NCBI RefSeq assembly: GCF_028714775.1
Contig: NZ_JAQTLS010000015.1
Location: 1-64,000, forward strand
Direction of reading: 5' to 3'
DNA from: Thiothrix sp.
GTDB lineage: Bacteria > Pseudomonadota > Gammaproteobacteria > Thiotrichales > Thiotrichaceae
Length of the DNA stretch: 64,000 nt
Every line of letters begins with the position of its first letter. Position 1 is the first letter of the stretch. The notes below the pieces were generated by a model that was not told the DNA's origin, searched no databases, and worked only from the letters and a program-made list of their open reading frames with translations. Of this stretch, positions 9,010 through 35,466 are shown piece by piece. Both the position numbers and the translations under genes were made by a program.

Positions 9010-9038
9010 ATTAGGCGCTCTATTTAATGGTATGGCAA
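9010..9038 (-). promoter_or_regulatory. Conserved promoter-like element, copy 1 (upstream of tal-xfp)
   Basis: On the minus strand this reads TTGCCA, 17 bases, then CCTAAT, with GCG directly before CCTAAT. Three other copies in the window share the exact 17-base spacing, the leading C of CTTGC and the GCGCCTAAT block. It faces the transaldolase start at 8955. Use as a -35/-10 pair is inferred from spacing and position. Confidence 0.65.
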
Positions 9039-9098
9039 GTTTTGGCTGGCTATTGGGTTTCATGCCTATTATTGTGGGTGTATGGTTGTGTTTTTATG

Positions 9099-9130
9099 GC
9101 AACAGTATGTTGCTATAGAGGCAACTTTTT
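9099..9130 (+). promoter_or_regulatory. Two mutually exclusive small hairpins upstream of the 9241 gene
   Basis: Three half-sites lie in a row: GCAAC (9099-9103), GTTGC (9109-9113) and GCAAC (9121-9125), and five T follow. The middle one can pair with either neighbour. The downstream pairing plus T-run looks like a weak terminator, and the upstream pairing would prevent it. The stems are only 5 bp, so an attenuator is a tentative reading. Nothing else is seen between the tal promoter and the gene at 9241. Confidence 0.25.
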
Positions 9131-9240
9131 AAATACAAAATAATTGCTTAGGAATTTATCGGATAATGCTATATATTAACTAATAGCTTTCGTAAAAAAT
9201 ATCAAAAAGATAATAGTGTGCCACAGTGGAGGATTTTGAA

Positions 9241-9471
9241 ATGAGTATAGGAAATGCAGTGCAGCATGGGACGTTAGTTTATATTTATGATGAAAACCTC
9301 AAGCAAACCATGTCAGTTTCGTCAGCGGGACGTTTTCCCAGTGATGGGTTGGTGGGGTACACAGCTCGTGCTGTCCATGTGCGCCGAGGGTCGATGGTGT
9401 ATGCCTACGACGAGAAGGGGCGTGTTCTCAGCTCAGCACCCGTCAAACACACACTTATTCGTGGTCAATAG
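9241..9471 (+). CDS. Small two-repeat beta-type protein of unknown function
   Basis: This is a 76-residue protein starting at the ATG at 9241, chosen because GGAGG sits just upstream; an in-frame ATG at 9226 lacks this. It contains two copies of one motif: VQHGTLVYIYDENLKQTMSV near residues 6-25 and VRRGSMVYAYDEKGRVLSSA near 50-69. Each is a probable beta hairpin centred on Y-x-YDE. I recall similar short proteins in other gammaproteobacteria without a known function. There is no signal peptide. Its stop overlaps the start of the patatin/beta-barrel gene by one base (TAGTG), so translation is coupled and the two products may work together. Confidence 0.7.
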   Translation: MSIGNAVQHGTLVYIYDENLKQTMSVSSAGRFPSDGLVGYTARAVHVRRGSMVYAYDEKGRVLSSAPVKHTLIRGQ

Positions 9472-11675
9472 TGGTTAGAACTTATCGTTTTGGCAGTGCT
9501 ATTTTTTTGGTGCTGCTGTGTTTATTGTCCGCGAGCGAAGCACTCGCCCGCCCAAAAATTGGTCTGGTGCTGGGGGGCGGCGGTGCTGCCGGGATCGCCC
9601 ATGTGGGTGTTTTGAAAGTGCTGGAAGCTAACCACATTCCCGTTGATGTGATTGCGGGTAACAGCATGGGTGCGGTAGTTGGTAGCTTGTATGCCTCTGG
9701 CATGAGCGTTGCCGAGATTGAGCGGGTTTCTAAAGCATTGGATTGGGGCAAACTGTTCAGTGATGACACCTCGCATCAGTTAAAGTCTTATCAGCAAAAA
9801 CAGCAAAGTGCAGACTTTTTCACGGTGTTTGAATCCGGGGTGTCCAAACAGGGCATCAAGCTACCCAGTGGCCTGATTGATGGTCAACACCTGATTTTTG
9901 AATTGCGGCGCTTGCTGGCTCCGGTAGCGCAAATCAGCAACTTTGACCGTTTGCCGATTCCGTTCCGCGCAGTTGCCACCGACATCCGTACTGGTGACGC
10001 AGTGGTGTTGAAACAGGGGAATTTGGCGAGTGCGGTGCGTGCCAGCATGTCGATTCCGGGCTTGTTTGCACCCGTCACCCTCGATAACCGTTTGCTGGTG
10101 GATGGCATGGTGTCGAATAATCTGCCCGTCGATATTGCCCGCCAGATGGGGGCAGACGTCCTCATCGTATCGAGCATCCCCCCCGACTATTCCCGTAAAT
10201 TGGATACCGCTTTGGACATCAGCTTGCAGTCGATGGATTTGCTGGTGCGTAAAACCAGCGAAGCACAATTGGCAAGCCTGACTCCGCAAGACATCCTGAT
10301 CCAGCCGCCCGTTGGTGAAGTTGGCAGGCTTGATTTCTCGCGGGTGGATGAAACAGTGGCACTCGGTGAAAAAGGTGCGCGTACCCAATTGGCAGCCTTG
10401 CAACGTCTGGCAGGCAGTTTGAGCAGCGACGCCAACCAGTTCGCGCAACCAGCCCACCCGATAGATGAAGCGGTCAAAGTTGCCAGTGTGCAAATTGAAA
10501 ATAGCTCTTCACTGCGCGAAAGCATTTTGCGGAAGGCGCTCAATATCAAGCCGGGCGATATTCTGGATAACCAGCGTTTGCAGGATGGTCTGAACCGTAT
10601 CTACACCTTGGGGTATTTCAGCTTGGTAGACTATACGCTGACCCAGCTTCCGTCCGGGGATTATGGCCTGAAGGTAATCGCGAAAAAGGCGACCGAAGGT
10701 GAGCATCGGGTGAGCGTTGGCTTCTCGCTGGGCGATGATTTTAATGGCGATACCCGCTATCAGGCCGGGGTGAAATATGTCCAGAAAGGCTTGACGGATT
10801 CGGGTACTGAATTGCGTGCCCAAGCGGTGATCGGGCGACGTTTGTTAGCCGAGGCGGAAATCTACCATCCGCTAGGCATTGGCGGTACGTTTGTTGCCCC
10901 GCGTGCATGGTATCAAGAGCGTGATGCTAATAGTTTGGACAATGCCCAGCAGCTTGCCAAAATAAGGGCGCGGGAAGCGCGGGCGCAGGTGGATATTGGG
11001 CATCCGGTCGGCAATTCTGGCGAAATCAGGGTAGGGGCGTTTTATCAAAAGACCAAGCCACAGCCCAAAGCTGGCACGTTGGGTGTGGCGGATACAGCAT
11101 TGACGGAAGCCGGGATCAAACTCCAGTATCAGGCTGATACGCTGGACTCGATCAACTTCCCAACCAAGGGAGGTCAGTTGACTGCCGCCTATACCCGTGG
11201 CGTTACAGCGATGGGAAGTGACAAGAATTTTAACCGCATTGAATTGGAAGGCGACCGCGTTTGGAGCGTGCATGACAAGCACCGCTTTATCGCCAGTGGG
11301 CGGGCAGTGGCAACGGCTAATAATGGGGCAGCGGTATTGGATAGTGGCAATGCCTTGGAAACCCATACCCTGCAAACGGGGCGCTTGGTGTTTTCTGATA
11401 ATGCCCCGTTGATTGGCAATGAAACGGCAGAAGGTTCCTTGACCTATATGCGCCAAGTCGCTGAAATCCCAGAAATAGCCAAAGTGCATGTGGGGGCTTC
11501 AGTGGGTGTCAGTCAGGCGTGGCAGCAGCGTGATACGGTTGATTTGGGCGGTATGCGGACTTCGGGCACGGTTTTTGTGGGTGGTGAAACCCCCATTGGC
11601 CCTGCGTTTGTCGGGGTGCGCAAGACGCAAGGGGCTGATCATCAGACGTATTTCACCTTGGGGCGGGATTTCTGA
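9471..11675 (+). CDS. Patatin-like phospholipase with POTRA and outer-membrane beta-barrel (type Vd-like)
   Basis: This 734-residue protein begins with a signal peptide (residues 1-26). A patatin domain follows at about residues 29-310, with the oxyanion loop GGGGAAG at 35-41, the nucleophile S65 in GNSMG and the Asp partner in LLVDGMVSNNLP. A POTRA-like segment (about 335-410) and a C-terminal BamA/ShlB-like barrel (about 415-734) come next, ending in aromatic FTLGRDF as outer-membrane barrels do. This order matches PlpD of Pseudomonas and related type Vd proteins, which carry a lipase on the cell surface or outer membrane. The start is a GTG at 9471 that overlaps the stop of the preceding small gene. 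Substrate and secretion of the lipase domain are inferred. Confidence 0.87.
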   Translation: MVRTYRFGSAIFLVLLCLLSASEALARPKIGLVLGGGGAAGIAHVGVLKVLEANHIPVDVIAGNSMGAVVGSLYASGMSVAEIERVSKALDWGKLFSDDTSHQLKSYQQKQQSADFFTVFESGVSKQGIKLPSGLIDGQHLIFELRRLLAPVAQISNFDRLPIPFRAVATDIRTGDAVVLKQGNLASAVRASMSIPGLFAPVTLDNRLLVDGMVSNNLPVDIARQMGADVLIVSSIPPDYSRKLDTALDISLQSMDLLVRKTSEAQLASLTPQDILIQPPVGEVGRLDFSRVDETVALGEKGARTQLAALQRLAGSLSSDANQFAQPAHPIDEAVKVASVQIENSSSLRESILRKALNIKPGDILDNQRLQDGLNRIYTLGYFSLVDYTLTQLPSGDYGLKVIAKKATEGEHRVSVGFSLGDDFNGDTRYQAGVKYVQKGLTDSGTELRAQAVIGRRLLAEAEIYHPLGIGGTFVAPRAWYQERDANSLDNAQQLAKIRAREARAQVDIGHPVGNSGEIRVGAFYQKTKPQPKAGTLGVADTALTEAGIKLQYQADTLDSINFPTKGGQLTAAYTRGVTAMGSDKNFNRIELEGDRVWSVHDKHRFIASGRAVATANNGAAVLDSGNALETHTLQTGRLVFSDNAPLIGNETAEGSLTYMRQVAEIPEIAKVHVGASVGVSQAWQQRDTVDLGGMRTSGTVFVGGETPIGPAFVGVRKTQGADHQTYFTLGRDF

Positions 11676-11679
11676 GGTT

Positions 11680-11928
11680 TTAAGCAACGGCGCTCGCATC
11701 TGTGTGTACATTGGCTTCGTCAGCTTTGCTTTCCACCAAAATGCCCTTAGCCCTTTCGATTTCTTGCTCAGTCCCATTGACGATAACATTTTCTTCGGTG
11801 TGATAGTCCTTGCCAATAACCGACAGTTTTTGCATATCGTAACCCGCTTTTTGCAGTTCCTTGACGGCGCTTTCAGCGTCATGGTGGCTGCTAAAAATCC
11901 CAACGGCTGAATTGTGTTTGTTTGTCAT
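11680..11928 (-). CDS. YflT/GSP17M-like stress protein
   Basis: This is an 82-residue protein of the heat-induced stress protein YflT (general stress protein 17M) domain type. It has an AVGIFSSHHDAESAVKELQKAGY opening with a ferredoxin-like beta-alpha-beta pattern and a YDMQKLSVIGKDY segment. The start was set at 11928 because GGAG lies a few bases upstream; the longer frame from 11958 lacks support. The biochemical role of the family is unknown, and in Bacillus it belongs to the general stress regulon. It has its own copy of the conserved promoter-like element at 11995-12023, about 60 bases upstream. It ends four bases after the convergent patatin gene. Confidence 0.75.
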   Translation of the reverse strand: MTNKHNSAVGIFSSHHDAESAVKELQKAGYDMQKLSVIGKDYHTEENVIVNGTEQEIERAKGILVESKADEANVHTDASAVA

Positions 11929-11994
11929 GATAATTCTCCATGATTTTAGGTAAAACACGGCATTGTTTTCATAATGAAAAATATGTTCAGTTTT

Positions 11995-12023
11995 ATTAGG
12001 CGCTATATTTGCTTGTGTTGCAA
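11995..12023 (-). promoter_or_regulatory. Conserved promoter-like element, copy 2 (upstream of YflT-like gene)
   Basis: The minus strand reads TTGCAA, 17 bases, then CCTAAT, with GCG before CCTAAT. It faces the YflT-like gene at 11928. On the plus strand a sigma-70-like pair, TTGTGT (12013-12018) and TATAGA (12035-12040) with 16 bases between, overlaps it and could serve the divergent gene at 12110. Confidence 0.65.
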
Positions 12024-12109
12024 GCTTCTGTCACTATAGATATGAAATAAACCTGTTTCCGTAATTTAAAATTATTGAGACGGGATAAGCCTCAAAAGGA
12101 GAGAAAGTT

Positions 12110-12679: not shown

Positions 12680-12720
12680 TGGAAGGTTAGCAATATTTTA
12701 GTAATACAGGAGTTAATATC

Positions 12721-13161: not shown

Positions 13162-13179
13162 CGAAATGCAGGGGGGAAC

Positions 13180-14076: not shown

Positions 14077-14397
14077 GTGATGGAAACCGTGAAACGAGAG
14101 GAAACCGTCGTGGGTATTCTGGAAGAAGACGTGCTGTTTTCGCTGGAAGAACTGTGCCGTTCCTGTTTTCTGCCTGCCGAACAGCTTTTGGAAATGGTTG
14201 ACGAGGGCATTATCGAACCCGTCAACTACCAGCAAACCACCACGAGTTGGCAGTTTGCAGGCAATAGCGTGGTGCGGGTGCGTACCGTGATTCGGCTTCA
14301 ACGCGATTTAGGTGTCAATCTGGCGGGCGCTGCTTTGGCGGTGGAGTTGTTGGATGAAATCAAAGCATTGCGTAAGAGTCCCCAGCATGGTCATTAA
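14077..14397 (+). CDS. cbpM: CbpM, modulator of CbpA
   Basis: This 106-residue protein matches CbpM/YccV-type chaperone modulators, a MerR-like helix-turn-helix fold that binds the J domain of CbpA and blocks its work with DnaK. Visible features are the ETVVGILEEDVLFSLEELC opening, the LEMVDEGIIEPV helix and a VRTVIRLQRDLGVNLAGAALA segment close to family consensus. The frame can start at GTG 14077 or ATG 14080; the ATG gives METVKREE and is preferred. Its position straight after cbpA is the usual arrangement. Confidence 0.88.
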   Translation: MMETVKREETVVGILEEDVLFSLEELCRSCFLPAEQLLEMVDEGIIEPVNYQQTTTSWQFAGNSVVRVRTVIRLQRDLGVNLAGAALAVELLDEIKALRKSPQHGH

Positions 14398-14929: not shown

Positions 14930-15217
14930 ATGTCTAGTGTCGGTTATCATGAACTCGTAGAAGAACTCACGGCTGAAACCCGCGATATGCACCGCGCCAT
15001 CGTTTCGCTCATGGAAGAGCTGGAAGCCGTGGATTGGTATAACCAGCGGGCGGATGTCTGTAAGGATCAAGAACTCAAAGCCATTCTGGAACACAACCGT
15101 GACGAGGAAAAGGAACACGCCTCAATGTTGCTGGAATGGATTCGGCGTAAAGACGCAAGGTTTTCCAAAGAACTCAAGGATTATTTGTTCACTGAAAAAC
15201 CTATCGCCGATAAATAA
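14930..15217 (+). CDS. Encapsulated-ferritin-like protein (EncFtn) without a visible cargo tail
   Basis: This 95-residue two-helix protein closely matches the encapsulated ferritin of Rhodospirillum rubrum. Residues equivalent to its ferroxidase and entry sites are all present: E29, E30, E32, W36 and Y37 in MEELEAVDWY, and E60 and H63 in HNRDEEKEH. EncFtn forms a ring decamer that oxidises Fe2+ at subunit interfaces. The protein stops at TEKPIADK, so the C-terminal targeting peptide that docks EncFtn into an encapsulin shell is missing. No encapsulin gene is nearby either. It has a strong AAAGGAGAAG site before the ATG and follows a membrane protein gene by 14 bases. It may act alone, or with a shell encoded elsewhere. 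Confidence 0.85.
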   Translation: MSSVGYHELVEELTAETRDMHRAIVSLMEELEAVDWYNQRADVCKDQELKAILEHNRDEEKEHASMLLEWIRRKDARFSKELKDYLFTEKPIADK

Positions 15218-23752: not shown

Positions 23753-23989
23753 TTAGGTTTCTCCTTCTTTTCCCCAACCTGCCTTTAATTTGTCCCAAGC
23801 ATCGCCGATTTCTTTGATCTTGGCTTTTGTTGAACCAAACAGTTGCTCAATTTCGCCATGCTCTGCGCGTCTGGCGGTGTATGCTGCCGCTTCGGCACTT
23901 CTTGAGCGGGCATTGAGTTCTATCAGTTCAAGCTGGGCTTTTTCTAACTTAGCCTCTAATTTCTGTCTGTAAGTTTCTTTCGTGTACAT
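23753..23989 (-). CDS. Sll1863-like coiled-coil stress protein, shorter paralogue
   Basis: This 78-residue, highly charged helical protein has a heptad pattern from about residue 5 to 50 and no signal peptide. It begins MYTKETYRQKLEAKLEKAQ and is a paralogue of the protein at 24920-25210 (MDTKETYKNKVEAELELAQ). Both share the RS-x-SA and KxKIKE/KVKLKE positions. This resembles the family named after cyanobacterial Sll1863, reported as stress responsive, with no known biochemical role. It is the fourth gene of a likely operon that starts at 25210. Confidence 0.7.
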   Translation of the reverse strand: MYTKETYRQKLEAKLEKAQLELIELNARSRSAEAAAYTARRAEHGEIEQLFGSTKAKIKEIGDAWDKLKAGWGKEGET

Positions 23990-24025: not shown

Positions 24026-24547
24026 TTATTTCTTTAACGCAGCATCAGCTTCTTGCTTTTCCCGCTCTGCTTTGGCAGCAATGCTTTCAGCAGTATTGGC
24101 TACAGCACCGGCTGTCGCCGATTTCGCTTTGTTGGCTTGGTCTTTTACCGCATCGGCAGCTTCAACCGCTTTTTCTTTGGTGGCCTGTGCCGCATCTACG
24201 GTGGCTTCCTTGGCATTATGGGCGGCGTCTTTAACATCTTCCTTGACGTTGGCGAGACCCGCAGCCGCAGAGTTGGCAGCCGATGAAGCTGCACTACCTG
24301 CCGCCGCAGCACCACTGGAAATGGCATCACCCGCAGCACCGACAGCTTGCCCGGCAGAATCCTTGGCCTGTCCTGCTTGTTCAGCAGCACGGTCACTTTG
24401 CATCGTGGCAGCTTTTGAGGCGGAATCTTCCGCTTGTTGGGCAGCGCGGGTTGCTTCGGCATCCGCAGCCGTTTTGGGAGGCGACTTATCACAGGCGACT
24501 AAGGCTGTCGCGATTAATAATAGTGATAAAATAGGTAAGGCTTTCAT
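24026..24547 (-). CDS. Alanine-rich lipoprotein
   Basis: This 173-residue protein has a lipoprotein signal (MKALPILSLLLIATALVAC, lipobox LVAC). The mature part is almost wholly Ala, Lys, Asp, Glu and Ser in 11-residue-like helical repeats (KDAAHNAKEATVDAAQATKEKA). This composition resembles LEA-type and YtxH/apolipoprotein-like helical proteins that lie along membranes or fold on drying. A periplasmic, membrane-anchored stress protein is inferred. It lies between csbD and the shorter Sll1863-like gene, with 52 and 36 bases between them. Confidence 0.7.
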   Translation of the reverse strand: MKALPILSLLLIATALVACDKSPPKTAADAEATRAAQQAEDSASKAATMQSDRAAEQAGQAKDSAGQAVGAAGDAISSGAAAAGSAASSAANSAAAGLANVKEDVKDAAHNAKEATVDAAQATKEKAVEAADAVKDQANKAKSATAGAVANTAESIAAKAEREKQEADAALKK

Positions 24548-24599: not shown

Positions 24600-24845
24600 T
24601 TAGGGTAGGGCGGCTTCGCTGGTGATACTTGTTTCTAGCTTCATGCCGTCGGCATCAAGTTTCAGACCTGTTACGGCATTCTCAGCTTCTTCAAGGCTAA
24701 GGTCGTAACGTTCTTGCAGTTTGCCTACCAGAAGCTCGACTCTGCCGCCGATTTCCAGTAAGTCATCATCCGTAAGTTTGCCAAACTGTTCACGCAGTGT
24801 GCCTTTTAGCTGATGCCAATTGGCTGAAATATAATTCGTGTCCAT
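24600..24845 (-). CDS. CsbD-family stress protein
   Basis: This 81-residue protein carries the CsbD-like domain: NWHQLKGTLREQFGKLTDDDL at the start and the LVGKLQERYDLSLEEAE segment. CsbD of Bacillus is a sigma-B-controlled general stress protein and E. coli YjbJ is a very abundant relative. The function is unknown. A 17-residue tail (LDADGMKLETSITSEAA) extends past the usual domain. It is the second gene of the cluster that begins at 25210, 74 bases after the first gene. Confidence 0.85.
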   Translation of the reverse strand: MDTNYISANWHQLKGTLREQFGKLTDDDLLEIGGRVELLVGKLQERYDLSLEEAENAVTGLKLDADGMKLETSITSEAALP

Positions 24846-24919: not shown

Positions 24920-25210
24920 TCAATCTTTAAATTTGTTGGTGGTATCGCGAACGGCGGTGCTTAGGGTATTCCATGCATTCTCCACGCCGTCTTTAAGCTG
25001 TTCCCAAGCGCCATCACTGGCTTCACTAAGTTCTTTCAATTTGACTTTTGTATTGTCAAACATCTTTTCAAGTTCGCTGGCCTGCTCGTTGTAAGCAATA
25101 TGCGCATCGGCCATAGCACTTTTGGAGCGGGCTTGGAATTCAGCTAGTTTGGCTTGTGCTAATTCCAGTTCGGCTTCAACTTTGTTTTTGTAGGTTTCTT
25201 TCGTATCCAT
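24920..25210 (-). CDS. Sll1863-like coiled-coil stress protein, longer paralogue
   Basis: This 96-residue protein has a charged coiled-coil N-terminal part (about 5-60). A C-terminal amphipathic segment (DGAWEQLKDGVENAWNTL) is longer than in its paralogue at 23753. A strong GGAGG lies before the ATG. It is the first gene behind the conserved promoter-like element at 25307-25335, with a leader of about 90 bases. The function is unknown. The name follows the Sll1863 stress-response family, assigned on sequence pattern only. Confidence 0.72.
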   Translation of the reverse strand: MDTKETYKNKVEAELELAQAKLAEFQARSKSAMADAHIAYNEQASELEKMFDNTKVKLKELSEASDGAWEQLKDGVENAWNTLSTAVRDTTNKFKD

Positions 25211-25306: not shown

Positions 25307-25335
25307 ATTAGGCGCTACATTCGCTTATATAGCAA
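25307..25335 (-). promoter_or_regulatory. Conserved promoter-like element, copy 3 (upstream of Sll1863-like/csbD cluster)
   Basis: The minus strand reads TTGCTA, 17 bases, then CCTAAT, with GTAGCG just before CCTAAT. It shares TACCTTGCTA and GTAGCGCCTAAT with copy 4. It faces the gene starting at 25210. Confidence 0.7.
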
Positions 25336-25371
25336 GGTAAATCACCGGAAATCCCGTGAAAAAACAAAGAT

Positions 25372-25409: not shown

Positions 25410-28400
25410 TTATGCCAGATAATCCGGCGTGATTTTTATTTTAACATGATGATCCTCTCGGTCATTTAGCAACGGAATACGCCCATTAGTCTGTTCAATT
25501 CCATCCAATGTAAGCATTACTACATTTTCATCATGGCTAAGTTGTGAAATAACGATGTGGTAAAACGTCTCTTGGTAACGGTAACGCAGCTTAAAGCTTG
25601 CCCAGCCTGCGGGTAAACACGGCTCAAAATACAAGCTGTCGCCTTCGCGCCGCAGCCCCAGTAACGATTCGGTAAGCAGCCGGTACAACCAGCCCGCCGA
25701 GCCTGTATACCACGTCCAGCCGCCGCGCCCGGTATGCGGTGCAACACCGTACACGTCTGCCGCCACCACGTAAGGCTCGACTTTGTAGGTGGCAATGCCA
25801 GCAGGGGATTGCCCGTGGTTGACCGGATTGATCAGAGTCATCAGTTCCCAAGCGCGGGCGCTATCACCCAGCCGCGCAAACGCCATCGCTGCCCACACTG
25901 CCGCATGGGTATATTGCCCGCCGTTTTCGCGTACTCCCGGCACATAACCACGGATATAACCGGGGTCAAGCGCGGAAATATTGAACGGTGGGTCTAACAA
26001 TTGCACCAGCGCGTCATCGCGGCGCACCAAATGTTGGTTCAGGGATTGCATCGCTTGTAGGGCACGTTCCGGCGCACCGACTCCAGACAGCACTGACCAA
26101 CTTTGCGCAATGGAATCTATTCGGCATTCCGGGTTGCTGGCGGAACCCAACGGTGTGCCGTCATCGAAATAAGCGCGGCGATACCATTCCCCATCCCAGC
26201 CGTGGCGCTCGATATTTTGGCGCAATTGGTAACGTTCCTCTTGGCAGCGTTCGGCGAAGGGGATGTCATTGCGTAGCCGTGCCAGTTCGGTAAACTGCCC
26301 CAGCACTTCGCACAGGAAAAAGCCCAGCCAGATGCTTTCACCCTTACCGCCCATGCCGACCAGATTCATGCCGTCGTTCCAGTCACCGGAACCCATCAGT
26401 GGCAAGCCGTGTTCGCCAAAACGTAAGCCGTGCAAGATTGCCTGCACGCAATGTTGGTAAAGGGGCGCAGTTTCACCCGCACGTCCGGGCAGGTCGTAAT
26501 AGGAATCTTCGTCCGCATTCACCGCACGGCCTGTCAAAAATGCGGCTTGTTCGTCCAATACGCTGAAGTCGTTAGTAGCAGTGATGTAACGGCAAACCGC
26601 TAGCGGCAACCACAGGTAATCATCGGAACAATGGGTGCGCACCCCCCGGTCGGATGGCGGATGCCACCAGTGCTGCACATCGCCCTCGGCAAACTGGTGG
26701 TTTGCGCACAACAGCAAATGTTCACGGACTTTGTGCGGTTCGGTATGCACCAAGGCCATTGCATCCTGCAACTGGTCACGGAAACCGAATGCCCCACCCG
26801 ATTGGTAGTAACCACTCCGCGCCCACATCCGGCAGGCAAGCGTTTGGTACACCAGCCAGCCATTGCCCAGCACATTGATGCTTTGGTCGGGTGTTTCCAT
26901 CTGCACGGTATCGAGTGTGCGCACCCAATATTGTTGCACTGCTGTGAGGGCATCGCGTGCTGCTGCCAGCCCCCGGAAACGTTGGATCAGCACGGCGGCA
27001 TCGTTAGCGTCGCGCCCCGCACCCAAGCTAAATACCAGTTCCCGCGTTTGCCCAGTCGCCAAGCTAAACGGCACTTGGATGGCGGCACACGGGTCAAGCG
27101 CTGCCCCCACTTTGCCGGACAGGTAAGCGCGTTGCATGGCTGCGGGGTTTTGCAACGACCTGTTCCGCCCGATGAATTCGCTACGGTCGCCCGTTACCGT
27201 GCGGATAGTGGCATCCACATCGAAAAAGCCAACCCGTTCGGCGAATTCGGTGTTGTAAGGGTTACGCGCCAGCAATGCCCCGCAACCTACCGCGCATTCG
27301 GTAATCACATGCGGGGTGGATTTGGGGCGTAAATCACCCAATACCCATTCCACATAGCCGGTAGCAGACAAGTGCCGTTCGCGGTTAGAGGCGTTATGGA
27401 CTTTCAGGATGGAAAATTTCACCGCTGCATCCAAAGCGACAAACACCATGAGTTCGCTGTGGATGCCGTTTTCGTTGTGTTCAAACACGCTGTAACCGAA
27501 ACCGTGACGGCTGATGTACGCGCCAGTGCCTGCACGGGGCAGGGGAGTCGGCGACCAGAAATGCCCGCTTTCCTCATCGCGCAAGTACAAGGCTTCGCCA
27601 CTTAAATCGCTCACCGGGTCGTTGTGCCAAGGGGTCAGACGGAATTCGTGGGCGTTTTCACGCCATGTGTAAGCTTGCCCGCTTTCGGAAATGACCGTGC
27701 CGAAGTGTGAATTTGCCAGTACATTCGCCCACGGCGCAGGGGTTTTATGCCCCACGGGCGGGGTAATCACGTACTCGCGCCCATCAGCGGTGAATCCGCC
27801 CAAGCCATTGAACAGGATCAAATCGGGACGTGGTAGCAAGCTGCTAACACTAGGCACTTCTGCTGGAAGATTCCGCACTGGTTTGAAGTACGGAACCCGT
27901 GCGTCCATGATGCTGCGCCGGTTGATTTGGTCTGCCAGCGTGCCACGGCTGTCGCTGATGATGGCGCGTGCCACCGATTGGATCAAAATTCGGTCTTCGC
28001 TGGAGATTTGGTCGGCATGGCGTACAAAAATGCCACCGGGACGGTCAATGACATGCGCTTCCACGCCCCATGCAATCAGCCCCATGATTTGTTCTTGCAG
28101 CACTTGGCGGTAGCCTTCACGGTCTTCGTTCCAGATTACTAAGTCGACCACCAGCCCTTTCAAGCGCCAGTAAGCGTGGGCTTTGACCAATTGGCGCACC
28201 AGTTCGATATTGTCCACGTCCTTGATTTGCAACAGCACAATCGGTAAATCGCCGGAAATGGCGTGCGCCCACAGCCCCGATTGCCCGCGATGGTTGCTGA
28301 TCAGTGTGTTGGCATCTGCCCGCAGTGCCGCATGGGAATAGATAACCGAATTGGCAAGCCGCCCATAGAGTTGCGCTTCCGCTTCGCTGGCATTGAGCTG

Positions 28401-31400
28401 GCGTAACACCACTTGGCTATGTGTCCACGCCAGATCGAATACGCGGTCAGCCAGCCGCCGGTCGTGGTATTTTTCCACCAATTCCAAGCTGGCAGCGCGG
28501 GTTTCGGCAATCCCGAATACCATGTCGAGCGTGACGGAGGCTTCTGGAGCCAGCGTAATCCGATGGCGGATAGCCACGATGGGGTCAAGCACCGCGCCTT
28601 CGCTGCCGGAAAGCTCGCCGGAACCGCGCATCGCTTGCGGGGAGGCAAGGGTATTGCCGCGCCCGATGAATTGCGCCCGGTCTGTTTCATACGACACCGC
28701 GCTGGATTCGCCTTCATGCACCGCCATCAAATGGAACATCCACGGGGTTTGCTCATGGATGGCACGCGGGCGGCGCGTACACAAGATCGCTTGCCGCTGG
28801 TCAATGATTTCAGTTTGCACAAACAGGTTGCTGAAGGCCGGATGGAGCGCATCCGACGCTGCCGAAGCCAACACCACTTCGGTGTAACTGGTGACTTCGA
28901 TGGTGCGGTGGGTGCGGGCGCGGTTGGTGATGCGTACCCGGCGCAATTCGATGTCATCTTCCGGCGATACCACGATGTCGATATGGGTGTCGAAACCGTG
29001 GTCGCTGCGGCGGAATTCCGCACGGCCTTCCGAGAAGATCGCTTCGTAATGCGTAGAAGGTTGGAGCGTGGGTTGGTGCGCGGTAGACCAGAATTCCCCG
29101 CTTGCCACGTCGCGGATGTAGCAGAACGTGCCCCAATGGTCGCAAGTGCTGTCTTCCTGCCAGCGCGTGACGGCAAAATCCTTGCAACGGCTGTAACCGC
29201 TGCCCGCGTTTGTCACCATCACGTTGTAACGCCCGTTCGACAGCAACTGCACTTCCGGGATCGCGCTATTCGGGTTGTTGAGCACCCGCACTGGAATTTG
29301 TAACTCGCTGGAAGCCAGCAGTACATCGGCGACTTCCGCCGCTTGCGTATAGAACGCGGTGGCTTTGGGGATGCGTTCCTGAAGCAGCAAGAGTGTGGCT
29401 TGGAACAGCGGGTTGGCAGCAAAGCGTTGTTGCATCGGGCGGTCGAGCAGCAGGTAAGCGAGTGAAAGCAGGCTCATGCCCTGATGGTGCGCCATGAAAG
29501 ATTGGATCACCACCCGCGCTTCCCCGCGCCGTTGGCGGGAAGGGGTGTAATCGACCGCTTCATAGAAACCAAATTTGCCCACCACCCCATCAGCGGCAAG
29601 GCGTTGCAGGTTTTGGCAGGCCGCTTCCGGCGCGACCATCAGCGCCAGTGCTGAGGCATAGGGGGCAATTACCAAGTCTTCCGCTAGCCCGCGTTTTAGC
29701 CCCAAACCGGGTACGCCAAAGGCGCGGTATTGGTAGTTGAGGTGTACATCGACGGTGTTATAGCCGGATTCGGAAATGCCCCACGGTACGCCGCGTTGCT
29801 TGCCGTACTCGATCTGGCGTTGCACCACGGCTTGGTAGGTCTGGTCGATCAGGGTGTTTTCATAGGTTGGCATCACCAGCAGCGGCATCAGGTATTCAAA
29901 CATCGAGCCGCTCCACGACAGCAGCGTCGGTTCGCCGTCGGTGGTGATCAGCAAGCGCCCTAAGGCAAACCAGCTTTCTTGCGGCACTTGTTCCTGTGCA
30001 ATCGTCACGAAACTGCACAGCCGCGCTTCCGAAGCCAGCAAGTCGTAGTAACTCGCATCGCGGTGGCGTTCCGTCACGTTATAACCGATTGCTAGCAAGC
30101 GCCGTGGCTTGTCGAACAGGAAGTCATATTGCATACAGGAAAGTTCGCTGGCCTGTTGCGCCACTTTCCCGATAGCATCAATGCGTTCCTGCGCCCGTTG
30201 GCTGGTTTCAGGCATCAGCAACAGTTCCCGCAAGGTCGGAATTCCCGATGTATCGGGGAGATTCGGTGCAAGGAACAACAATTCATCCAAATGCGCCCGA
30301 CACTGTTGCGCCAAAGCAAGCCCCCAATCCCCTGTAGGAGCTTGCCCCGCAAGCGATTCCCCCAGCTCAAGGCAACGTTTTGCTGCCGCCAATGTTGTCG
30401 GGCGGTCAGTAGCGGCAGCTTCCAGCGCTTTTTGCAAAGGGATCAAGTGCGGTGGAACAATGCCCAGCGTGCTTTCCACCAACACCCCCAGCGTATCCAG
30501 CAACCCTTCCGCCCAACGTACCGCCAAAATCGGCTGGTCAGGCAAAGCCAGCAAGCCCGGACGCAAGGTCAGCAAATGCCCACCAAGGTTGCCGCTATCC
30601 ACCGTTGACACGTAGCGGGGCAGCAATGGCTGCAAGGTTTGGGTATCGTACCAGTTGTAAAAATGCCCTTGATAACGCTCCAAAACCGCCATCGTGCCCA
30701 GCGTATTGGCAGTACGTCCAATCAGCGTGCCTACCGAAATGTAACCAAAGTCGTAAGCTGCCAAATTCGCCAGCAAGGCCATGCCGATATTGGTCGGCGA
30801 AGTACGGTGCGCCACCCCGACATCCCGATACACTTGGTAATTATCCGGCGGCAACCAATGGTCATCCGCCACCACCAAGGTCTCGAAATACGCCCACGTG
30901 CGGCGGGCAGTTTTCCTTAAGAATACGGTTTGCTCTGCCGTCAGGTGTGCTTCACGGCGGGTCAGCGGTTCACTGATCCACCAAGAAATCGCGGGTGAAA
31001 GCCACCACAACAGCAGGATAGGCGCTGCCGCCACCAATACATCAGGCCGCGCCAGCGCCAAATAACTCCCAGCCAGCATTGCCAGCACCGGGGCAACCCA
31101 CATCGTGCGGTAAGCGGTGGGCAGGTTGTGGCTGCGGCGGTTAACCTCACTTGAGGGGTTCCATTCCAACAGCCGCTGGGGGGCAAAGCGCATCCGCCAC
31201 AAGGTACGGATTACCGCATCCAAGCTGAAATAGGCTTCGTAAGGCAGGCAAACCAGTGCCAGTAAAGCTTGGGTAAAATGCCCTTCTGCCGCGCGTATTT
31301 CAGCCGCAAGGTGTTGGCGTAACAGCAATTCCGCAGGTTTACGCACCAAACTCAGCAGTGAAGCACTCAAGGAGGGGATCAGCAAGACCGCAATGACCGC

Positions 31401-33974
31401 ACCCGTCCAAAATCCTGCGGCTGGCAATGCCGTCCAGCCCAGCAACAACAGCGCCGTTAAGGCCGCAGCGGTGAGGCTACGCCGCAGATTGTCGAAAATT
31501 TTCCAGCGTGACAGCCCCGATAGCGGGTTTTTATGGCGGTTGCCATCCAAGCCCGGAACCGTGGGTAACAGCCATTGCAGCAGTTGCCAGTCACCGCGAA
31601 TCCAACGATGCCGACGGTTGACATCGGCGCTGTAACGCAGCGGGTATTCCTCATATAACTGCACATCGCTGAGCAGCCCCGCCCGCGCATAACAGCCTTC
31701 CAACAAGTCATGGCTGAGAATGTGGTTTTCGGGCAGGCGACCGCCGAGTGAATGCTCGAAGGCATCCACGTCGTAAATACCTTTGCCAATGAACGAGCCT
31801 TCATGGAACACATCTTGGTAAACGTCGGAAACGGCGCGGGTGTAAGGGTCAATGCCCGATTCCCCGCCATACAAACGGGCGTAGCGTGAGAGCGCGGAAC
31901 CTGACAGGCTCACACTGACGCGCGGCTGTAAGATGCCGTAACCTTCGTCCACGCGCTGTTTGGCTGCATCGTAGACCGCACGGTTCAGCGGGTGCGCCAT
32001 CGTCCCAACAAATTGGCGGGCGGAATCACGCGGTAACTGGGTATCCGTGTCCAAGGTGATGATGTATTTTACCCCGGATAGCATCGTGGTATTGCCCACA
32101 ATCAGCGCAAACGCCGCCTGCGAACCACCGCGTAACAGCGCATTCAAATCTGCCAGCTTGCCGCGCTTGCGTTCGTAACCCATCCACAGTTGCGCTACCG
32201 GATTCCAGCGGCGGGGGCGGTGGAACAGGAAGAAGGTGTCACGTTCCGCGCCCGGATATTTTTCATTCAGGTGTTCGATGCCTGCTTGTGCCTGCCGTAG
32301 CAGCGCGTCATCCTCACTGAGCGTTTCGGTCGGTGCATCCAGAAAGTCAGTCAGCAGGCCGAAATGTAAATGTGCGTCGCGGTTGGCGAGGAAACGGACT
32401 TCCAGCGCCTCAATCATGCCCTCAATGCTGTGGGCGCTGCTTAGCATGGTCGGCACGACCACCAAGGTGCGTGATTGCACCGGGATGCCCTCGGAAAAGT
32501 CCATGCGCGGCAAGGGGTGTGGCATGGTCAGCAAGGTTGCCAGCCAATTCACCAGTGCCACTGACAAATAGCTCGTCCCCAGTGCCAACAGGATGCCCAG
32601 CAACGCAAGGTTCCCGTCCTGCATCCCGCCAGTATGGGCTTTCAGCAACAAGCTGCCGGTGAAAATTACCGTCAACAACGCGATTGCGCCCAAAAAGGTG
32701 AACAAGGGGGCGCGGCATATAACCCTTTGCAGCTTTTCGCCCAGCGGTAATTGCGCCCCAACGGTGCGTTCGAGTTGCGGCAAGCCCCGGTCAATCAGGT
32801 AAAAGCCAACATGCGCGGTGCGGTCATCGCTGCCTTTGTCCGCCGCGCTGGTATGCGCCAGTTGCACCGCCAGCCTTGCCACTTCGGCTTCAGACTGGCG
32901 GGTATGTTTGGCAACTTTTTCCACCACATGCCGGTAGCGGTCACGGGTGGCAAAATCCATTTCGGCATAAGCGCCATCCAAGTCCTTGCGCAGGGTCTGT
33001 TCGACCACGCTCATGGTTTCGACGAATTCCTGCCAATCCATTGAGCCAAGAAAACGCAGGCTACCAATGCTGTTGCCAATGGACACTTGATCAGCCGCCT
33101 GTTGCTGGCTTTCCACCTGCACCAATTGCTCAATGGTCACGTGCGATTCGGCAAGCAATTGTTCGATCCACGTCAGCGGCAAGGCCAATACCGCGCTTTG
33201 CCACTGCAAACGGCGCACCAGTTCCGCCACAAACGGGGTGGTCATGGGCGGGTTGGAACGTGCCATGTCAGCAATCACCAGAATCAGGCTTTTCGGGTCT
33301 TTTTCGGCGGTTTCAACCATGCGGTTTGCCCAAGCGTCGGCGAGGTCTTGGTCAATTTTGTCGGCGGTAATGCGGGCGGCAATGCGGCGCAGGTTTTCGA
33401 TCAGCGCCAAGCGCAACATGATGGGGATTGCCCATAATTCGCCCAGCTTGAGTGGCGTAATGCTTTGGTAAGCGCCCACGAAACGGCTGAGGTTTTCCGG
33501 GTCTACTCGCCCGTCACCGTGGGCAATGTTTTCCAGCGCAATGTCATAAACACGCGGCAATCCGGCAGAACCTCCGCCCAATAAGCGTGGCAGTTCGCGG
33601 CTGTAACCTTTGGGGAAGTGGCGTCTGGCAGTGCGGATTTGTTCGTCAATCAGGTAGAAATTATCCAGCAGCCATTCGCCTGCGGGGGTAAGTTGCCGGT
33701 TGGTACTGACAGAGGCGGTCAACATGCGGGAACATTCCATCAGTACGTCTTCGTTATCTGACAACCTGTCCAGCAGTTGATCTAGCGCTGATACTTGGGT
33801 CAGGTGGTGGGATTCCGCCAATGTCCGCCCATGCCGCTCCATCTGTTCGGCACTGAACAGTTCCGCCCGTAACGGTTGCGTTTCTTTGACCTGATCCCGA
33901 TAAGCATTGACCCGGAAGGATTGCGCCCCCCATTTGCGGATATTGCCTAACAGGGTTTTGCGGTTTGCTTTCAT
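25410..33974 (-). CDS. Cyclic beta-1,2-glucan synthase (NdvB/ChvB-like, GT84-glycoamylase-GH94)
   Basis: This 2854-residue membrane enzyme matches Rhizobium/Brucella cyclic glucan synthases in length and order. An N-terminal region (1-420) leads to membrane helices near 430-475. A GT84 glycosyltransferase domain follows, with TLDTDTQLPRDSA near residue 640 and a RHRWIRGDWQL motif, and more helices lie near 850-880 and 985-1020. A glycoamylase-type domain sits in the middle. A GH94 phosphorylase-like half carries the general-acid motif GDWNDGMN near residue 2530. These enzymes build, size and cyclise periplasmic beta-1,2-glucans for osmotic adaptation. Here it is the last of six co-directional genes behind the promoter-like element at 35438. 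The linkage is inferred from the family. Confidence 0.88.
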   Translation of the reverse strand: MKANRKTLLGNIRKWGAQSFRVNAYRDQVKETQPLRAELFSAEQMERHGRTLAESHHLTQVSALDQLLDRLSDNEDVLMECSRMLTASVSTNRQLTPAGEWLLDNFYLIDEQIRTARRHFPKGYSRELPRLLGGGSAGLPRVYDIALENIAHGDGRVDPENLSRFVGAYQSITPLKLGELWAIPIMLRLALIENLRRIAARITADKIDQDLADAWANRMVETAEKDPKSLILVIADMARSNPPMTTPFVAELVRRLQWQSAVLALPLTWIEQLLAESHVTIEQLVQVESQQQAADQVSIGNSIGSLRFLGSMDWQEFVETMSVVEQTLRKDLDGAYAEMDFATRDRYRHVVEKVAKHTRQSEAEVARLAVQLAHTSAADKGSDDRTAHVGFYLIDRGLPQLERTVGAQLPLGEKLQRVICRAPLFTFLGAIALLTVIFTGSLLLKAHTGGMQDGNLALLGILLALGTSYLSVALVNWLATLLTMPHPLPRMDFSEGIPVQSRTLVVVPTMLSSAHSIEGMIEALEVRFLANRDAHLHFGLLTDFLDAPTETLSEDDALLRQAQAGIEHLNEKYPGAERDTFFLFHRPRRWNPVAQLWMGYERKRGKLADLNALLRGGSQAAFALIVGNTTMLSGVKYIITLDTDTQLPRDSARQFVGTMAHPLNRAVYDAAKQRVDEGYGILQPRVSVSLSGSALSRYARLYGGESGIDPYTRAVSDVYQDVFHEGSFIGKGIYDVDAFEHSLGGRLPENHILSHDLLEGCYARAGLLSDVQLYEEYPLRYSADVNRRHRWIRGDWQLLQWLLPTVPGLDGNRHKNPLSGLSRWKIFDNLRRSLTAAALTALLLLGWTALPAAGFWTGAVIAVLLIPSLSASLLSLVRKPAELLLRQHLAAEIRAAEGHFTQALLALVCLPYEAYFSLDAVIRTLWRMRFAPQRLLEWNPSSEVNRRSHNLPTAYRTMWVAPVLAMLAGSYLALARPDVLVAAAPILLLWWLSPAISWWISEPLTRREAHLTAEQTVFLRKTARRTWAYFETLVVADDHWLPPDNYQVYRDVGVAHRTSPTNIGMALLANLAAYDFGYISVGTLIGRTANTLGTMAVLERYQGHFYNWYDTQTLQPLLPRYVSTVDSGNLGGHLLTLRPGLLALPDQPILAVRWAEGLLDTLGVLVESTLGIVPPHLIPLQKALEAAATDRPTTLAAAKRCLELGESLAGQAPTGDWGLALAQQCRAHLDELLFLAPNLPDTSGIPTLRELLLMPETSQRAQERIDAIGKVAQQASELSCMQYDFLFDKPRRLLAIGYNVTERHRDASYYDLLASEARLCSFVTIAQEQVPQESWFALGRLLITTDGEPTLLSWSGSMFEYLMPLLVMPTYENTLIDQTYQAVVQRQIEYGKQRGVPWGISESGYNTVDVHLNYQYRAFGVPGLGLKRGLAEDLVIAPYASALALMVAPEAACQNLQRLAADGVVGKFGFYEAVDYTPSRQRRGEARVVIQSFMAHHQGMSLLSLAYLLLDRPMQQRFAANPLFQATLLLLQERIPKATAFYTQAAEVADVLLASSELQIPVRVLNNPNSAIPEVQLLSNGRYNVMVTNAGSGYSRCKDFAVTRWQEDSTCDHWGTFCYIRDVASGEFWSTAHQPTLQPSTHYEAIFSEGRAEFRRSDHGFDTHIDIVVSPEDDIELRRVRITNRARTHRTIEVTSYTEVVLASAASDALHPAFSNLFVQTEIIDQRQAILCTRRPRAIHEQTPWMFHLMAVHEGESSAVSYETDRAQFIGRGNTLASPQAMRGSGELSGSEGAVLDPIVAIRHRITLAPEASVTLDMVFGIAETRAASLELVEKYHDRRLADRVFDLAWTHSQVVLRQLNASEAEAQLYGRLANSVIYSHAALRADANTLISNHRGQSGLWAHAISGDLPIVLLQIKDVDNIELVRQLVKAHAYWRLKGLVVDLVIWNEDREGYRQVLQEQIMGLIAWGVEAHVIDRPGGIFVRHADQISSEDRILIQSVARAIISDSRGTLADQINRRSIMDARVPYFKPVRNLPAEVPSVSSLLPRPDLILFNGLGGFTADGREYVITPPVGHKTPAPWANVLANSHFGTVISESGQAYTWRENAHEFRLTPWHNDPVSDLSGEALYLRDEESGHFWSPTPLPRAGTGAYISRHGFGYSVFEHNENGIHSELMVFVALDAAVKFSILKVHNASNRERHLSATGYVEWVLGDLRPKSTPHVITECAVGCGALLARNPYNTEFAERVGFFDVDATIRTVTGDRSEFIGRNRSLQNPAAMQRAYLSGKVGAALDPCAAIQVPFSLATGQTRELVFSLGAGRDANDAAVLIQRFRGLAAARDALTAVQQYWVRTLDTVQMETPDQSINVLGNGWLVYQTLACRMWARSGYYQSGGAFGFRDQLQDAMALVHTEPHKVREHLLLCANHQFAEGDVQHWWHPPSDRGVRTHCSDDYLWLPLAVCRYITATNDFSVLDEQAAFLTGRAVNADEDSYYDLPGRAGETAPLYQHCVQAILHGLRFGEHGLPLMGSGDWNDGMNLVGMGGKGESIWLGFFLCEVLGQFTELARLRNDIPFAERCQEERYQLRQNIERHGWDGEWYRRAYFDDGTPLGSASNPECRIDSIAQSWSVLSGVGAPERALQAMQSLNQHLVRRDDALVQLLDPPFNISALDPGYIRGYVPGVRENGGQYTHAAVWAAMAFARLGDSARAWELMTLINPVNHGQSPAGIATYKVEPYVVAADVYGVAPHTGRGGWTWYTGSAGWLYRLLTESLLGLRREGDSLYFEPCLPAGWASFKLRYRYQETFYHIVISQLSHDENVVMLTLDGIEQTNGRIPLLNDREDHHVKIKITPDYLA

Positions 33975-34024
33975 GGGGTATCCCTTGCTGGGGTTGGATC
34001 AAATGCGGTTTTCATGATTATCTT

Positions 34025-34243
34025 TTAAACATGCTTCAATAACTGTATCGCTACCCCCAACAAGCTTGGCGATAGCTGGCCTTTATTAAATTTCCCCAAG
34101 ATGCTGCCGACCAGCAGGGAAGCCCCAACTGATTCGAACGGGTGTTTTTTAATAAATCCGAAATATTCAGTGTTGGCAGATGCCTTGCGCAATTGCTGTT
34201 TGGCTTCTGCTATGGTTTGCGGTTTGTATATCTCAGTCGCCAT
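34025..34243 (-). CDS. Small YqjK-position protein of unknown function
   Basis: This is a 72-residue protein with a charged N-terminal half (IYKPQTIAEAKQQLRKASA) and a weakly hydrophobic C-terminal half (VGASLLVGSILGKF). The start at 34243 was chosen because AGGAG lies 8 bases upstream; a longer frame from 34270 has no such site. It overlaps the holin-like gene upstream, as yqjK does with yqjE in enterobacteria. That order (DUF883 protein, holin-like protein, third small protein) is the main reason for the name. Its sequence is not a clear YqjK match. Confidence 0.6.
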   Translation of the reverse strand: MATEIYKPQTIAEAKQQLRKASANTEYFGFIKKHPFESVGASLLVGSILGKFNKGQLSPSLLGVAIQLLKHV

Positions 34244-34491
34244 ATCATTACTCCTGCTAATAGCAGGCAAATCATCCCCACTATTAACAAAGCGTCAACT
34301 TCTGGCAAATAAAGGCATAAGGTTTGATAAAGGGCGGTCAGAAAGAATCCGGCTGCCACCATGACAAGGAGTGTTGCGACCATCAGTATTAAAATGAGGC
34401 TTGCTGTTTGCAACACTTTGCTTTGCAGCATACGCCCTTCGGCTTCTGCCAGATCGAACAGGCCAATAATCACTTCAGTCAGCGCTTTCAC
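34210..34491 (-). CDS. YqjE-like / holin-superfamily membrane protein
   Basis: This 93-residue protein has an amphipathic N-terminal helix (MKALTEVIIGLFDLAEAEGRML) and two membrane helices (about 28-53 and 60-82) with a short loop and a basic end. It matches the YqjE / phage holin family (PF07332-like) often found next to DUF883 proteins. It starts three bases after the stop of the DUF883 gene, and its 3' end overlaps the next small gene, so the trio is translationally coupled. It is probably an inner-membrane partner of the YqjD-like protein. Confidence 0.75.
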   Translation of the reverse strand: MKALTEVIIGLFDLAEAEGRMLQSKVLQTASLILILMVATLLVMVAAGFFLTALYQTLCLYLPEVDALLIVGMICLLLAGVMIWRLRYTNRKP

Positions 34492-34494
34492 GGC

Positions 34495-34812
34495 TTACTT
34501 GCCTTGGCCTAGAACCTTAAACAGGCCGTAACCCACGCCAAAAGCAATTAAGATGCTGGCAACTGGGTTTTTACGGATATGATCACTTACGTCATTAAGG
34601 CCAGCGCTACCTGCTTCATATACGTCATGAAGTTTTTGTCCGGCTTGGTCTTGATAGCGTCCGACAGTGCTTTCGAGGTTGTCGGAAGTGGCTTCGGCTT
34701 TGCTTTTGAGGGACTGTAACAGGTCGTTTACTTGGGTGCGCAGGGTGTCAAATTCTTCCCGGAACCCCGATTCCGTCGCCGTTTCGGCTTCTGCAATTTT
34801 GGTGTGTGGCAT
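34495..34812 (-). CDS. DUF883 protein (ElaB/YqjD/YgaM-like, ribosome-tethering type)
   Basis: This 105-residue protein has a long charged helix with coiled-coil character (about 15-80) and a C-terminal single membrane anchor (NPVASILIAFGVGYGLF) preceded by DHIRKNP, the classic DUF883 ending. In E. coli ElaB, YqjD and YgaM are RpoS-dependent inner-membrane proteins that bind stationary-phase ribosomes. It follows the PLDc_N gene by 32 bases in the minus-strand stress operon. Confidence 0.87.
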   Translation of the reverse strand: MPHTKIAEAETATESGFREEFDTLRTQVNDLLQSLKSKAEATSDNLESTVGRYQDQAGQKLHDVYEAGSAGLNDVSDHIRKNPVASILIAFGVGYGLFKVLGQGK

Positions 34813-34844
34813 GATTGCTCTCCTTGTTAAATATTATTATTCAG

Positions 34845-35021
34845 TTATTTGGGACCAGCTAACATCCATAGTAACAGGCCAATAACAGGTAAAATTAGAA
34901 TGAGTACGACCCACAGGACTTTCGTACCTGTCCCCGCGCCGCTTTGGATAACTTTGATAATACCCCAGACATCAAGAACGAGGATGACAAGACCTAAGAG
35001 GCCGCCAACTTCAATACCCAT
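34845..35021 (-). CDS. PLDc_N-domain small membrane protein
   Basis: This 58-residue protein has two membrane helices (about 8-26 and 35-53), joined by IIKVIQSGAGTGTKVLW and ending LLLWMLAGPK. This matches the PLDc_N family (PF13396), the N-terminal membrane piece of cardiolipin synthases occurring alone. The solo version has no catalytic part and no known activity. An AAGGAG site precedes the ATG. It lies 25 bases after the Lmo0937-like gene in the same operon. Confidence 0.75.
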   Translation of the reverse strand: MGIEVGGLLGLVILVLDVWGIIKVIQSGAGTGTKVLWVVLILILPVIGLLLWMLAGPK

Positions 35022-35046
35022 GATACAACTCCTTGGTTGTTATGTT

Positions 35047-35193
35047 TTACAAGCTTCGGCCTTGAATAACACGTAACAAAATAACGATGATCGCAATGAC
35101 CAAGAGGATATGAATGAGTCCACCCATAGTATATGAGGTAACAAACCCCAGTAACCAAAGGACAATGAGGACGATGGCGATTAGTTCGAGCAT
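35047..35193 (-). CDS. Lmo0937-family tiny membrane protein
   Basis: This 48-residue protein is almost wholly two membrane helices: LIAIVLIVLWLLGFV, then a TSYTMGGLIH turn, then ILLVIAIIVILLRVIQG. This is the conserved pattern of the Lmo0937 family, widespread in stress operons of very different bacteria; the role is unknown. It is the first gene behind the promoter-like element at 35438. Its ribosome binding site AAGGAG is partly inside a hairpin (35201-35227). Confidence 0.8.
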   Translation of the reverse strand: MLELIAIVLIVLWLLGFVTSYTMGGLIHILLVIAIIVILLRVIQGRSL

Positions 35194-35200
35194 ACAACAT

Positions 35201-35227
35201 CTCCTTTTGCCATGTATTTGGCAAAGG
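35201..35227 (-). promoter_or_regulatory. Hairpin that partly covers the ribosome binding site of the Lmo0937-like gene
   Basis: In the minus-strand transcript CCTTTGCCA pairs with TGGCAAAAGG (one bulged A) around a six-base loop. The last four bases of the 3' arm belong to the AAGGAG ribosome binding site, 8 bases before the ATG. Opening of the stem could control translation of the first gene in the operon. The control itself is inference. Confidence 0.45.
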
Positions 35228-35437
35228 TTAAATTAAGACGCAATGTCGTTTAATGTGGAACTATTTACGCGCCAACGCTCGACAATCTGAAGCTTTATGG
35301 AATCAGTGTTTCAGACAGTAAAAGATGACATTTTTCGTAGAAAGAAACGGCATTTTATCACTTCCTTGTGCTTGATAGGGTTTATGTATCAATTGAAATA
35401 TTGGCTTTTTAGCCACGCCTAAGGAAGGTCTATTTCC

Positions 35438-35466
35438 ATTAGGCGCTACATTTACTTTTATAGCAA
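35438..35466 (-). promoter_or_regulatory. Conserved promoter-like element, copy 4 (upstream of YqjDE/glucan synthase operon)
   Basis: The minus strand reads TTGCTA, 17 bases, then CCTAAT preceded by GTAGCG. It shares GGAAATAGAC right after CCTAAT with copy 1. The nearest start is 35193, so the leader would be about 240 bases, the longest of the four. Otherwise the stretch 35228-35579 holds no gene that I can support. Confidence 0.68.

Follow-up and report, generated by a model that had tools for sequence, protein, structure and literature searches.

The sigma-B general stress regulon of Bacillus overlaps in gene families, including CsbD and YflT, with a gene island of Thiothrix sp. (Thiotrichaceae, Gammaproteobacteria), although its promoter sequence is different and the Thiothrix regulon is confined to that one island. 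The island lies in a stretch of 64,000 nucleotides (assembly GCF_028714775.1, contig NZ_JAQTLS010000015.1, positions 1 to 64,000; hereafter, the window), in which a promoter-like element of the form TTGCNA-N17-CCTAAT precedes four gene units: tal-xfp, a YflT-domain gene, the sll1863/csbD cluster, and the operon extending from lmo0937 to a glucan synthase gene. As for the element itself, the closest described systems include the promoters of extracytoplasmic function (ECF) sigma factors and the promoters activated by MerR-family regulators. According to the available part of PMC6411747, ECF sigma factors demand strictly defined boxes and a spacer of rigid length, and in sigma-H promoters the -35 box spans -34 to -29 and the -10 side has G-11 T-10 T-9; the available part of PMC10189885 describes MerR promoters as having a 19-20-bp spacer and a dyad between the boxes.

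Like the ECF promoters of sigma-H in M. tuberculosis and sigma-E in E. coli, the Thiothrix element possesses two strict boxes, a rigid spacer, a -10 box starting with G-pyrimidine-pyrimidine, and a small regulon; it differs from them in having CTTGCTA instead of GGAAC on the -35 side, in the additional invariance of TAAT, in its conserved spacer bases, and in that no autoregulated sigma gene was found. With the 19-bp-spacer promoters of the MerR family it shares TTG at -35 and, if TAATRA is the -10 box, would share T-12/A-11 located 19 bases downstream; the dyad between the boxes is partial and weak, T-7 is lacking, and no dedicated MerR gene was found. The sigma-32 heat-shock promoters have CTTG on the -35 side in common with the element and differ in other bases and in spacing. 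In a literature search of partial coverage, none of the papers listed dealt with the regulation of such a gene set in Thiothrix, which is a weak negative statement.

Four sites matching TTGCNA-N17-CCTAAT without mismatches, all on the minus strand, were found in the window (Table 1). Each site carries C directly 5' of TTGC and GCG directly 5' of CCTAAT (4/4) and points at the first gene of its own unit, as the first-pass annotation had reported and as the exact search and the gene coordinates confirm; the distances from CCTAAT to ATG are 54, 66, 96, and 244 bases for elements 1 to 4, respectively. Only 0.024 exact 29-base matches are expected in the window from base composition (Poisson probability of four or more, ~1.4e-8), and the expected count of an 18-base extended motif, TTGCNA-N8-AATNNAGCGCCTAAT, is 1.4e-6. 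At up to two mismatches, the window contains 20 matches versus 18.7 expected, so the four exact matches alone are distinctive. In the whole host genome (4,304,237 bases, 70 contigs), seven copies of the short motif are present, versus 1.6 expected from composition and five for the reversed control, and the three copies outside the window sit inside open frames of 554, 244, and 176 codons, counted from stop to stop. The extended motif has four exact genomic matches, all inside this 26-kb stretch, no further match at one or two mismatches, and five more at three mismatches versus three for the reversed control; equal frequency inside genes elsewhere, named at the first pass as a ground for abandoning the idea, is thus not what was found for the extended motif. 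A profile built from 30 sites of the genus (described below) returned just these four sites in the host genome, at 39-52 bits. Since neither the extended-motif search nor the profile (strict filters, 96 of 701 candidates scored) yielded a fifth site, the candidate regulon would be local, comprising four units. The element is confined to one 26-kb island. Of the stress regulon proposed at the first pass, what stands is a local set of four units with stress-type genes, conserved with fixed direction in part of the genus; its genome-wide extension does not.

The distribution of the element was studied in 16 genomes of the genus (Thiothrix in the GTDB sense), including the window genome, G000. At up to one mismatch, 27 sites were identified in 10 of the 16 genomes, with one to four sites per genome, and the identical ten genomes carry a gene of the sll1863 family; in the six genomes without an island sll1863 gene, no element was seen at this threshold. 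Sites located on one contig share the strand and lie within ~32 kb, and in G011, an assembly of 130 contigs, they are split over two contigs. Two sites at two mismatches, from reading the islands of nine relatives, and one at four mismatches, from the G005 island, completed the set of 30 sites: 10 for sll1863/csbD, 9 for glucan synthase, 8 for the yflT position, and 3 for tal. A degenerate site in G006 (2126207), with one extra base before TAAT, was excluded. Twenty-eight of the 30 sites lie upstream of a same-strand gene that is orthologous to one in the window; the other two (G004 1629006 and G006 2127127) have no such gene within 1.5 kb. The yflT-position element leads to tal, within 1.5 kb, in four of the eight genomes having that element type. 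The island is partly syntenic among the relatives: in ten islands, some of them covered in part only, glucan synthase is present in all ten, cbpA, cbpM, a P-type ATPase, an ABC exporter, and a 189-aa membrane protein in nine each, tal, CsbD, and HlyD in eight each, and xfp and transglutaminase in seven each.

With the first T of TTGC numbered as position 1, the four promoter groups align without gaps, and 13 of the 49 aligned columns are invariant in all 30 sites (C0, T1, T2, G3, C4, A6, A16, G21, G23, T26, A27, A28, and T29). Further columns are conserved at 90% or more (A11, A15, T17, A20, C24, and A32), and variation is seen at position 22 (C in 23 sites, A in 7), position 25 (C in 22, T in 8), and position 31 (A in 18, G in 11, T in 1). 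The spacing is identical in 30/30 sites, which is partly an effect of how the sites were searched. TAAT and the ATG of sll1863 are just 31 bases apart in G012 and G013, the Shine-Dalgarno sequence included, and a -10 box located further 3' would start transcripts at or inside that sequence; the -10 box should therefore lie inside the element or at its end. As judged from sequence conservation, the element is a real and selected candidate promoter element of a small local regulon, conserved in 10 of the 16 genomes of one genus.

The profile of the 30 sites was also applied, under strict filters and with 96 candidates scored in each genome, to 63 genomes belonging to the order. In the genus beyond G000, it returned the training sites and four weak hits, namely the degenerate G006 copy (19.2 bits), a site in G002 (18.4 bits), and sites in G001 and G003 (~15 bits). 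In G002, which is one of the six island-less genomes, a yflT-type element is located between the cbpA/baeRF12 genes and a transglutaminase gene, and it is decayed: TTGC reads GCTC and GCG reads GCA, with a 3' flank that still matches G013. The 3-kb locus, to which the search for tal was confined, gave no tal match and an xfp match of just 55 aa. Because this orphan element has lost TTGC and GCG while its flank was kept, the case, a single one, suggests that the boxes decay once the target gene is lost. Outside the genus, the best profile hit (3.7e-5, in G021) lies upstream of a pilin-like open reading frame (ORF) and is devoid of TTGC; the weaker hits outside the genus were taken for chance matches (G021 and G037 were inspected, as were G002 and G003 inside the genus).

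An exact scan of a larger collection of genome contigs detected 29 stretches, five of them in two Thiothrix-group genomes: T. fructosivorans (G004; three) and a marine biofilm metagenome-assembled genome (G011; two). Among the other 24 stretches, 17 lie inside open frames of at least 133 codons; of the seven left, five have one Bacteroidota sequence in common. None of the 24 is followed 3' by an orthologue of an island gene. The scanned viral contigs gave no match. Genes of the sll1863 family were identified in 35 of 369 gammaproteobacterial genomes, G000 included; upstream of such genes in other gammaproteobacteria the core scores were negative in all 16 usable loci of 29 (21 scored, five dropped for wrong frame), with no training-site scores alongside.

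Our preferred reading, which we hold only tentatively, is that the four sites serve as core promoters of a clustered small Thiothrix regulon controlled by one trans-acting factor, an ECF-like alternative sigma factor. A single factor would read CTTGCTAYA on the -35 side and G(C/T)(C/T)TAAT on the -10 side at a fixed distance, and the same factor would switch on tal-xfp, the YflT-domain gene, the sll1863/csbD cluster, and the lmo0937-glucan synthase operon jointly. The four operons are probably switched on together by one regulator, because they share one rigid signal that is kept in the relatives and is absent elsewhere in the genome. The element would be the promoter core itself. An ECF-like reader, instead of sigma-70, RpoS, or RpoH, is preferred on the basis of the geometric fit of the element to the ECF register: with G23 at -11, C0-T5 (CTTGCT) falls on -34 to -29 and G-Y-Y on -11 to -9, and both C0-C4 and G23 are invariant. 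In filamentous sulfur oxidisers, such a regulon would bring flux through phosphoketolase and transaldolase, small stress proteins, and a giant glucan synthase together in a single response; the promoter is sharply defined and has just four genomic copies, and a single DNA bait could suffice to isolate its regulator.

Several observations weigh against an ECF-like reader. The 30 sites all come from one genus and hence are not independent, and they were collected with patterns of fixed spacing, a procedure biased towards a constant spacer. The -35 side reads CTTGC in 30/30 sites and does not match the GGAAC/AAC type of ECF promoters, and conservation extends into the spacer (A11 and A15-T17), although recognition by a sigma factor alone would not require it. 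The comparison with the sigma factor set of the genome, suggested at the first pass, located at least eight sigma genes in G000 (RpoD, RpoS, RpoH, an RpoE type, three further ECFs, and one adjoining rpoS, the first four names being our reading of size, score, and sequence rather than a family call). The survey covered matches of PF04542 and PF08281 over the 16 genomes, among the matches listed (7 of 13 PF08281 matches viewed for G000), and sequences were compared for four ECF genes of G000, 15 of other genomes, and the rpoS-adjacent sigma gene in 16. No sigma gene restricted to island-bearing genomes was seen among those compared: ECF-A and ECF-B are shared by the compared island-bearing genomes and occur also in island-less ones, the RpoE type is likewise present in island-less genomes (its sequence comparison being that of G000 with G003 only), and the rpoS-adjacent gene is found in 16/16 genomes of the genus. 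None of the sigma genes located in G000 has the element upstream, and the upstream regions of some of these genes contain, by eye, AGAACC- or GAACT-type boxes. Autoregulation of ECF sigma genes is usual, though not universal.

Two side observations concern these sigma genes. In four genomes, TTAGAACC occurs near the start of the ECF-A genes (L144, L149, L151, and L155), possibly as an autoregulatory promoter of a different type; it is absent in G003 (L157). The divergent ECF-type sigma gene beside rpoS (G000:C16:15380-15520, L288; relatives L289-L303) lacks, in G000, a significant Pfam match for region 2, and its PhyR sigma-like match exceeds the cut-off by a narrow margin; in G009 its product is 74 aa by the first start after a stop.

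An activator-dependent promoter is the main rival to the ECF-like reader and is possible, if less probable. The sites would then be weak sigma-70/RpoS promoters with TAATRA, 19 bases after TTGCNA, as the -10 box. A dedicated MerR-like protein or response regulator would cover CTTGCTATA...TATAGCGC, which lies between the two boxes, and its binding would correct the long spacer and activate the four operons. In this register T26 and A27 are invariant, as -12T and -11A should be, and the spacer would have the 19 bp of MerR-type promoters (available part of PMC10189885), a fit obtained only if TAATRA is the -10 box. The conserved spacer bases agree with a bound protein, and a narrow local regulon is typical of activators. 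On the other hand, position 31, which would be -7, is T in just 1/30 sites. The best dyad, GCTATA-N8-TATAGC, is equalled by 16/500 column shuffles when the flanks are included, but by 60/500 for the element alone, and in the yflT group only 2-4 of its 6 positions are matched; the palindrome idea is weak. CbpM (MerR_2), the sole MerR-fold protein noticed in the island, belongs to a family that, as a family, is reported in the available part of PMC4063869 to lack the DNA-contacting residues. It is still matched beside the decayed G002 element (a 35-aa match at the locus edge). The MerR_1 proteins, compared by size and score, include none with an obvious restriction to island genomes; in G001 and G014 there are just two each, of 129 aa and ~330 aa, sizes seen in 16/16 and 15/16 genomes, respectively. 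Close orthologues (84%) of the KdpE-like response regulator encoded beside a DUF4118 kinase in the window were found, among the matches listed, only in G004, G012, and G014, and it is therefore not the common reader.

A more far-reaching reading is that CTTGCTAYA-N14-GYYTAAT without the -11 adenine represents a promoter class of Thiothrix's own, read by a sigma factor or a sigma-activator pair with a specificity not recognised so far. The whole chromosomal regulon of this reader would consist of four operons, all in a single conserved island for envelope/carbon stress; we regard this as rather unlikely.

That the element is a regular promoter of RpoS or sigma-70, with a -10 box out of the usual and no special factor involved, is improbable. 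An RpoS-sized sigma factor (the label being our own reading) is present in 16/16 genomes of the genus, TTGNNA, 17 bp, and NNTAAT match 8/12 consensus positions, and the genes are of stress type (csbD, tal, and yflT type). However, a global sigma factor would not leave just four sites in one island. Furthermore, in the 17-bp register the -11 base (position 25) is C or T in 30/30 sites and never A, in line with the first-pass remark that the -10 box is unlike the sigma-70 consensus, and in the 19-bp register T at -7 is nearly always missing; both facts speak against plain sigma-70 or RpoS, including the simple RpoS variant considered at the first pass.

That the element belongs to a leader RNA or a repeat instead of a promoter is very improbable. 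Element 4 sits 244 bases 5' of its first gene, and the relatives' leaders hold a second conserved block, but possible hairpin arms are not kept paired across the sites, inspection by eye of the 60 bases upstream showed no other conserved promoter-like block common to all four groups, and the window has no Rfam match at gathering score. The second block, approximately TACACGTAGCA...CTTAATAnAA, lies ~30-60 bases 3' of the element in the glucan synthase operon leaders of eight aligned relatives (for example, L099 about 9435-9470, plus strand), is not recognisable in the window genome, and could be a second promoter or leader signal.

A variant RpoH (sigma-32) promoter, to which the first-pass annotation saw a partial resemblance, would agree with the sigma-32-like look of the invariant C before TTG and the C-rich bases before TAAT, but has hardly any likelihood, as the sites read CTTGC in 30/30 cases, the spacing and CAT core do not fit CTTGAA, 12-15 bases, CCCCAT, and the same genome carries canonical CTTGAA-N14-CCCCAT upstream of an HtpG-like ORF (identity by our own reading; five genomic matches of this pattern versus zero for the control). 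Sigma-54, with TTGC as the -12 box of GG-N10-GC, was rejected, with GG at the required place in 0/30 rows by eye.

Table 1. Elements, genes of the four units, and neighbouring genes in the window
Feature	Position	Strand	Family match or remark
Element 1, C + TTGCCA-N17-CCTAAT	9010..9039	-	upstream of tal-xfp; 29-base core 9010-9038; profile 39.2 bits
Element 2	11995..12024	-	upstream of YflT-domain gene; core 11995-12023; 42.6 bits
Element 3	25307..25336	-	between glucan synthase stop and next start, upstream of sll1863/csbD cluster; core 25307-25335; 50.5 bits
Element 4	35438..35467	-	upstream of lmo0937 ... glucan synthase operon; core 35438-35466; 52.5 bits
xfp, phosphoketolase	5474..7849	-	XFP_N/XFP/XFP_C
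tal, transaldolase	7864..8955	-	first gene after element 1; TAL_FSA 1.4e-88
YflT-domain small protein	11680..11928	-	first gene after element 2, ATG at 11928; PF11181, 28.6 bits (cut-off 26.2)
sll1863-family stress protein	24920..25210	-	first gene after element 3; NF052504 1.1e-26
CsbD family protein	24600..24845	-	PF05532
Ala-rich small protein	24026..24547	-	without family match
Second, shorter sll1863-like protein	23753..23989	-	30 bits, below cut-off 35
lmo0937-family membrane peptide	35047..35193	-	first gene after element 4; NF033488 1.3e-18
58-aa small hydrophobic protein	34845..35021	-	without NCBIfam match
105-aa small protein	34495..34812	-	earlier YqjD-like label unconfirmed; Apolipoprotein match far under cut-off
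93-aa membrane protein	34210..34491	-	earlier YqjE-like label unconfirmed; Phage_holin_3_6 under cut-off
2854-aa glucan synthase, cyclic-glucan-synthase-type	25410..33974	-	GH94 supersandwich/catalytic, glucoamylase, glycosyltransferase domains
KdpE-like response regulator	3440..4261	-	OmpR-type
Response regulator and DUF4118 (KdpD-like) histidine kinase, pair	3440..5306	-	directly after tal-xfp, before Kup
Kup K+ transporter	1551..3425		3' of the response regulator/kinase pair
EncFtn-like protein	14930..15217	+	encapsulated-ferritin-type; adjoins cbpA-cbpM
Roco-type protein, 1079 aa	39107..42346	-	leucine-rich repeats, Roc, COR, C-terminal TIR domain

Of the gene names given at the first pass, tal, xfp, the YflT domain, sll1863, lmo0937, CsbD, and glucan synthase were upheld, and the YqjD/E labels were not, their matches lying below cut-off with none in NCBIfam. 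The families and names of these genes suggest a stress role for the four units. Among the neighbouring genes, the response regulator/kinase pair may share a transcription unit with element 1, which would possibly link it to potassium or osmotic stress. An EncFtn-like gene adjoins cbpA-cbpM, and the bacterial Roco-type chain encoded beyond element 4 is perhaps a defence protein.

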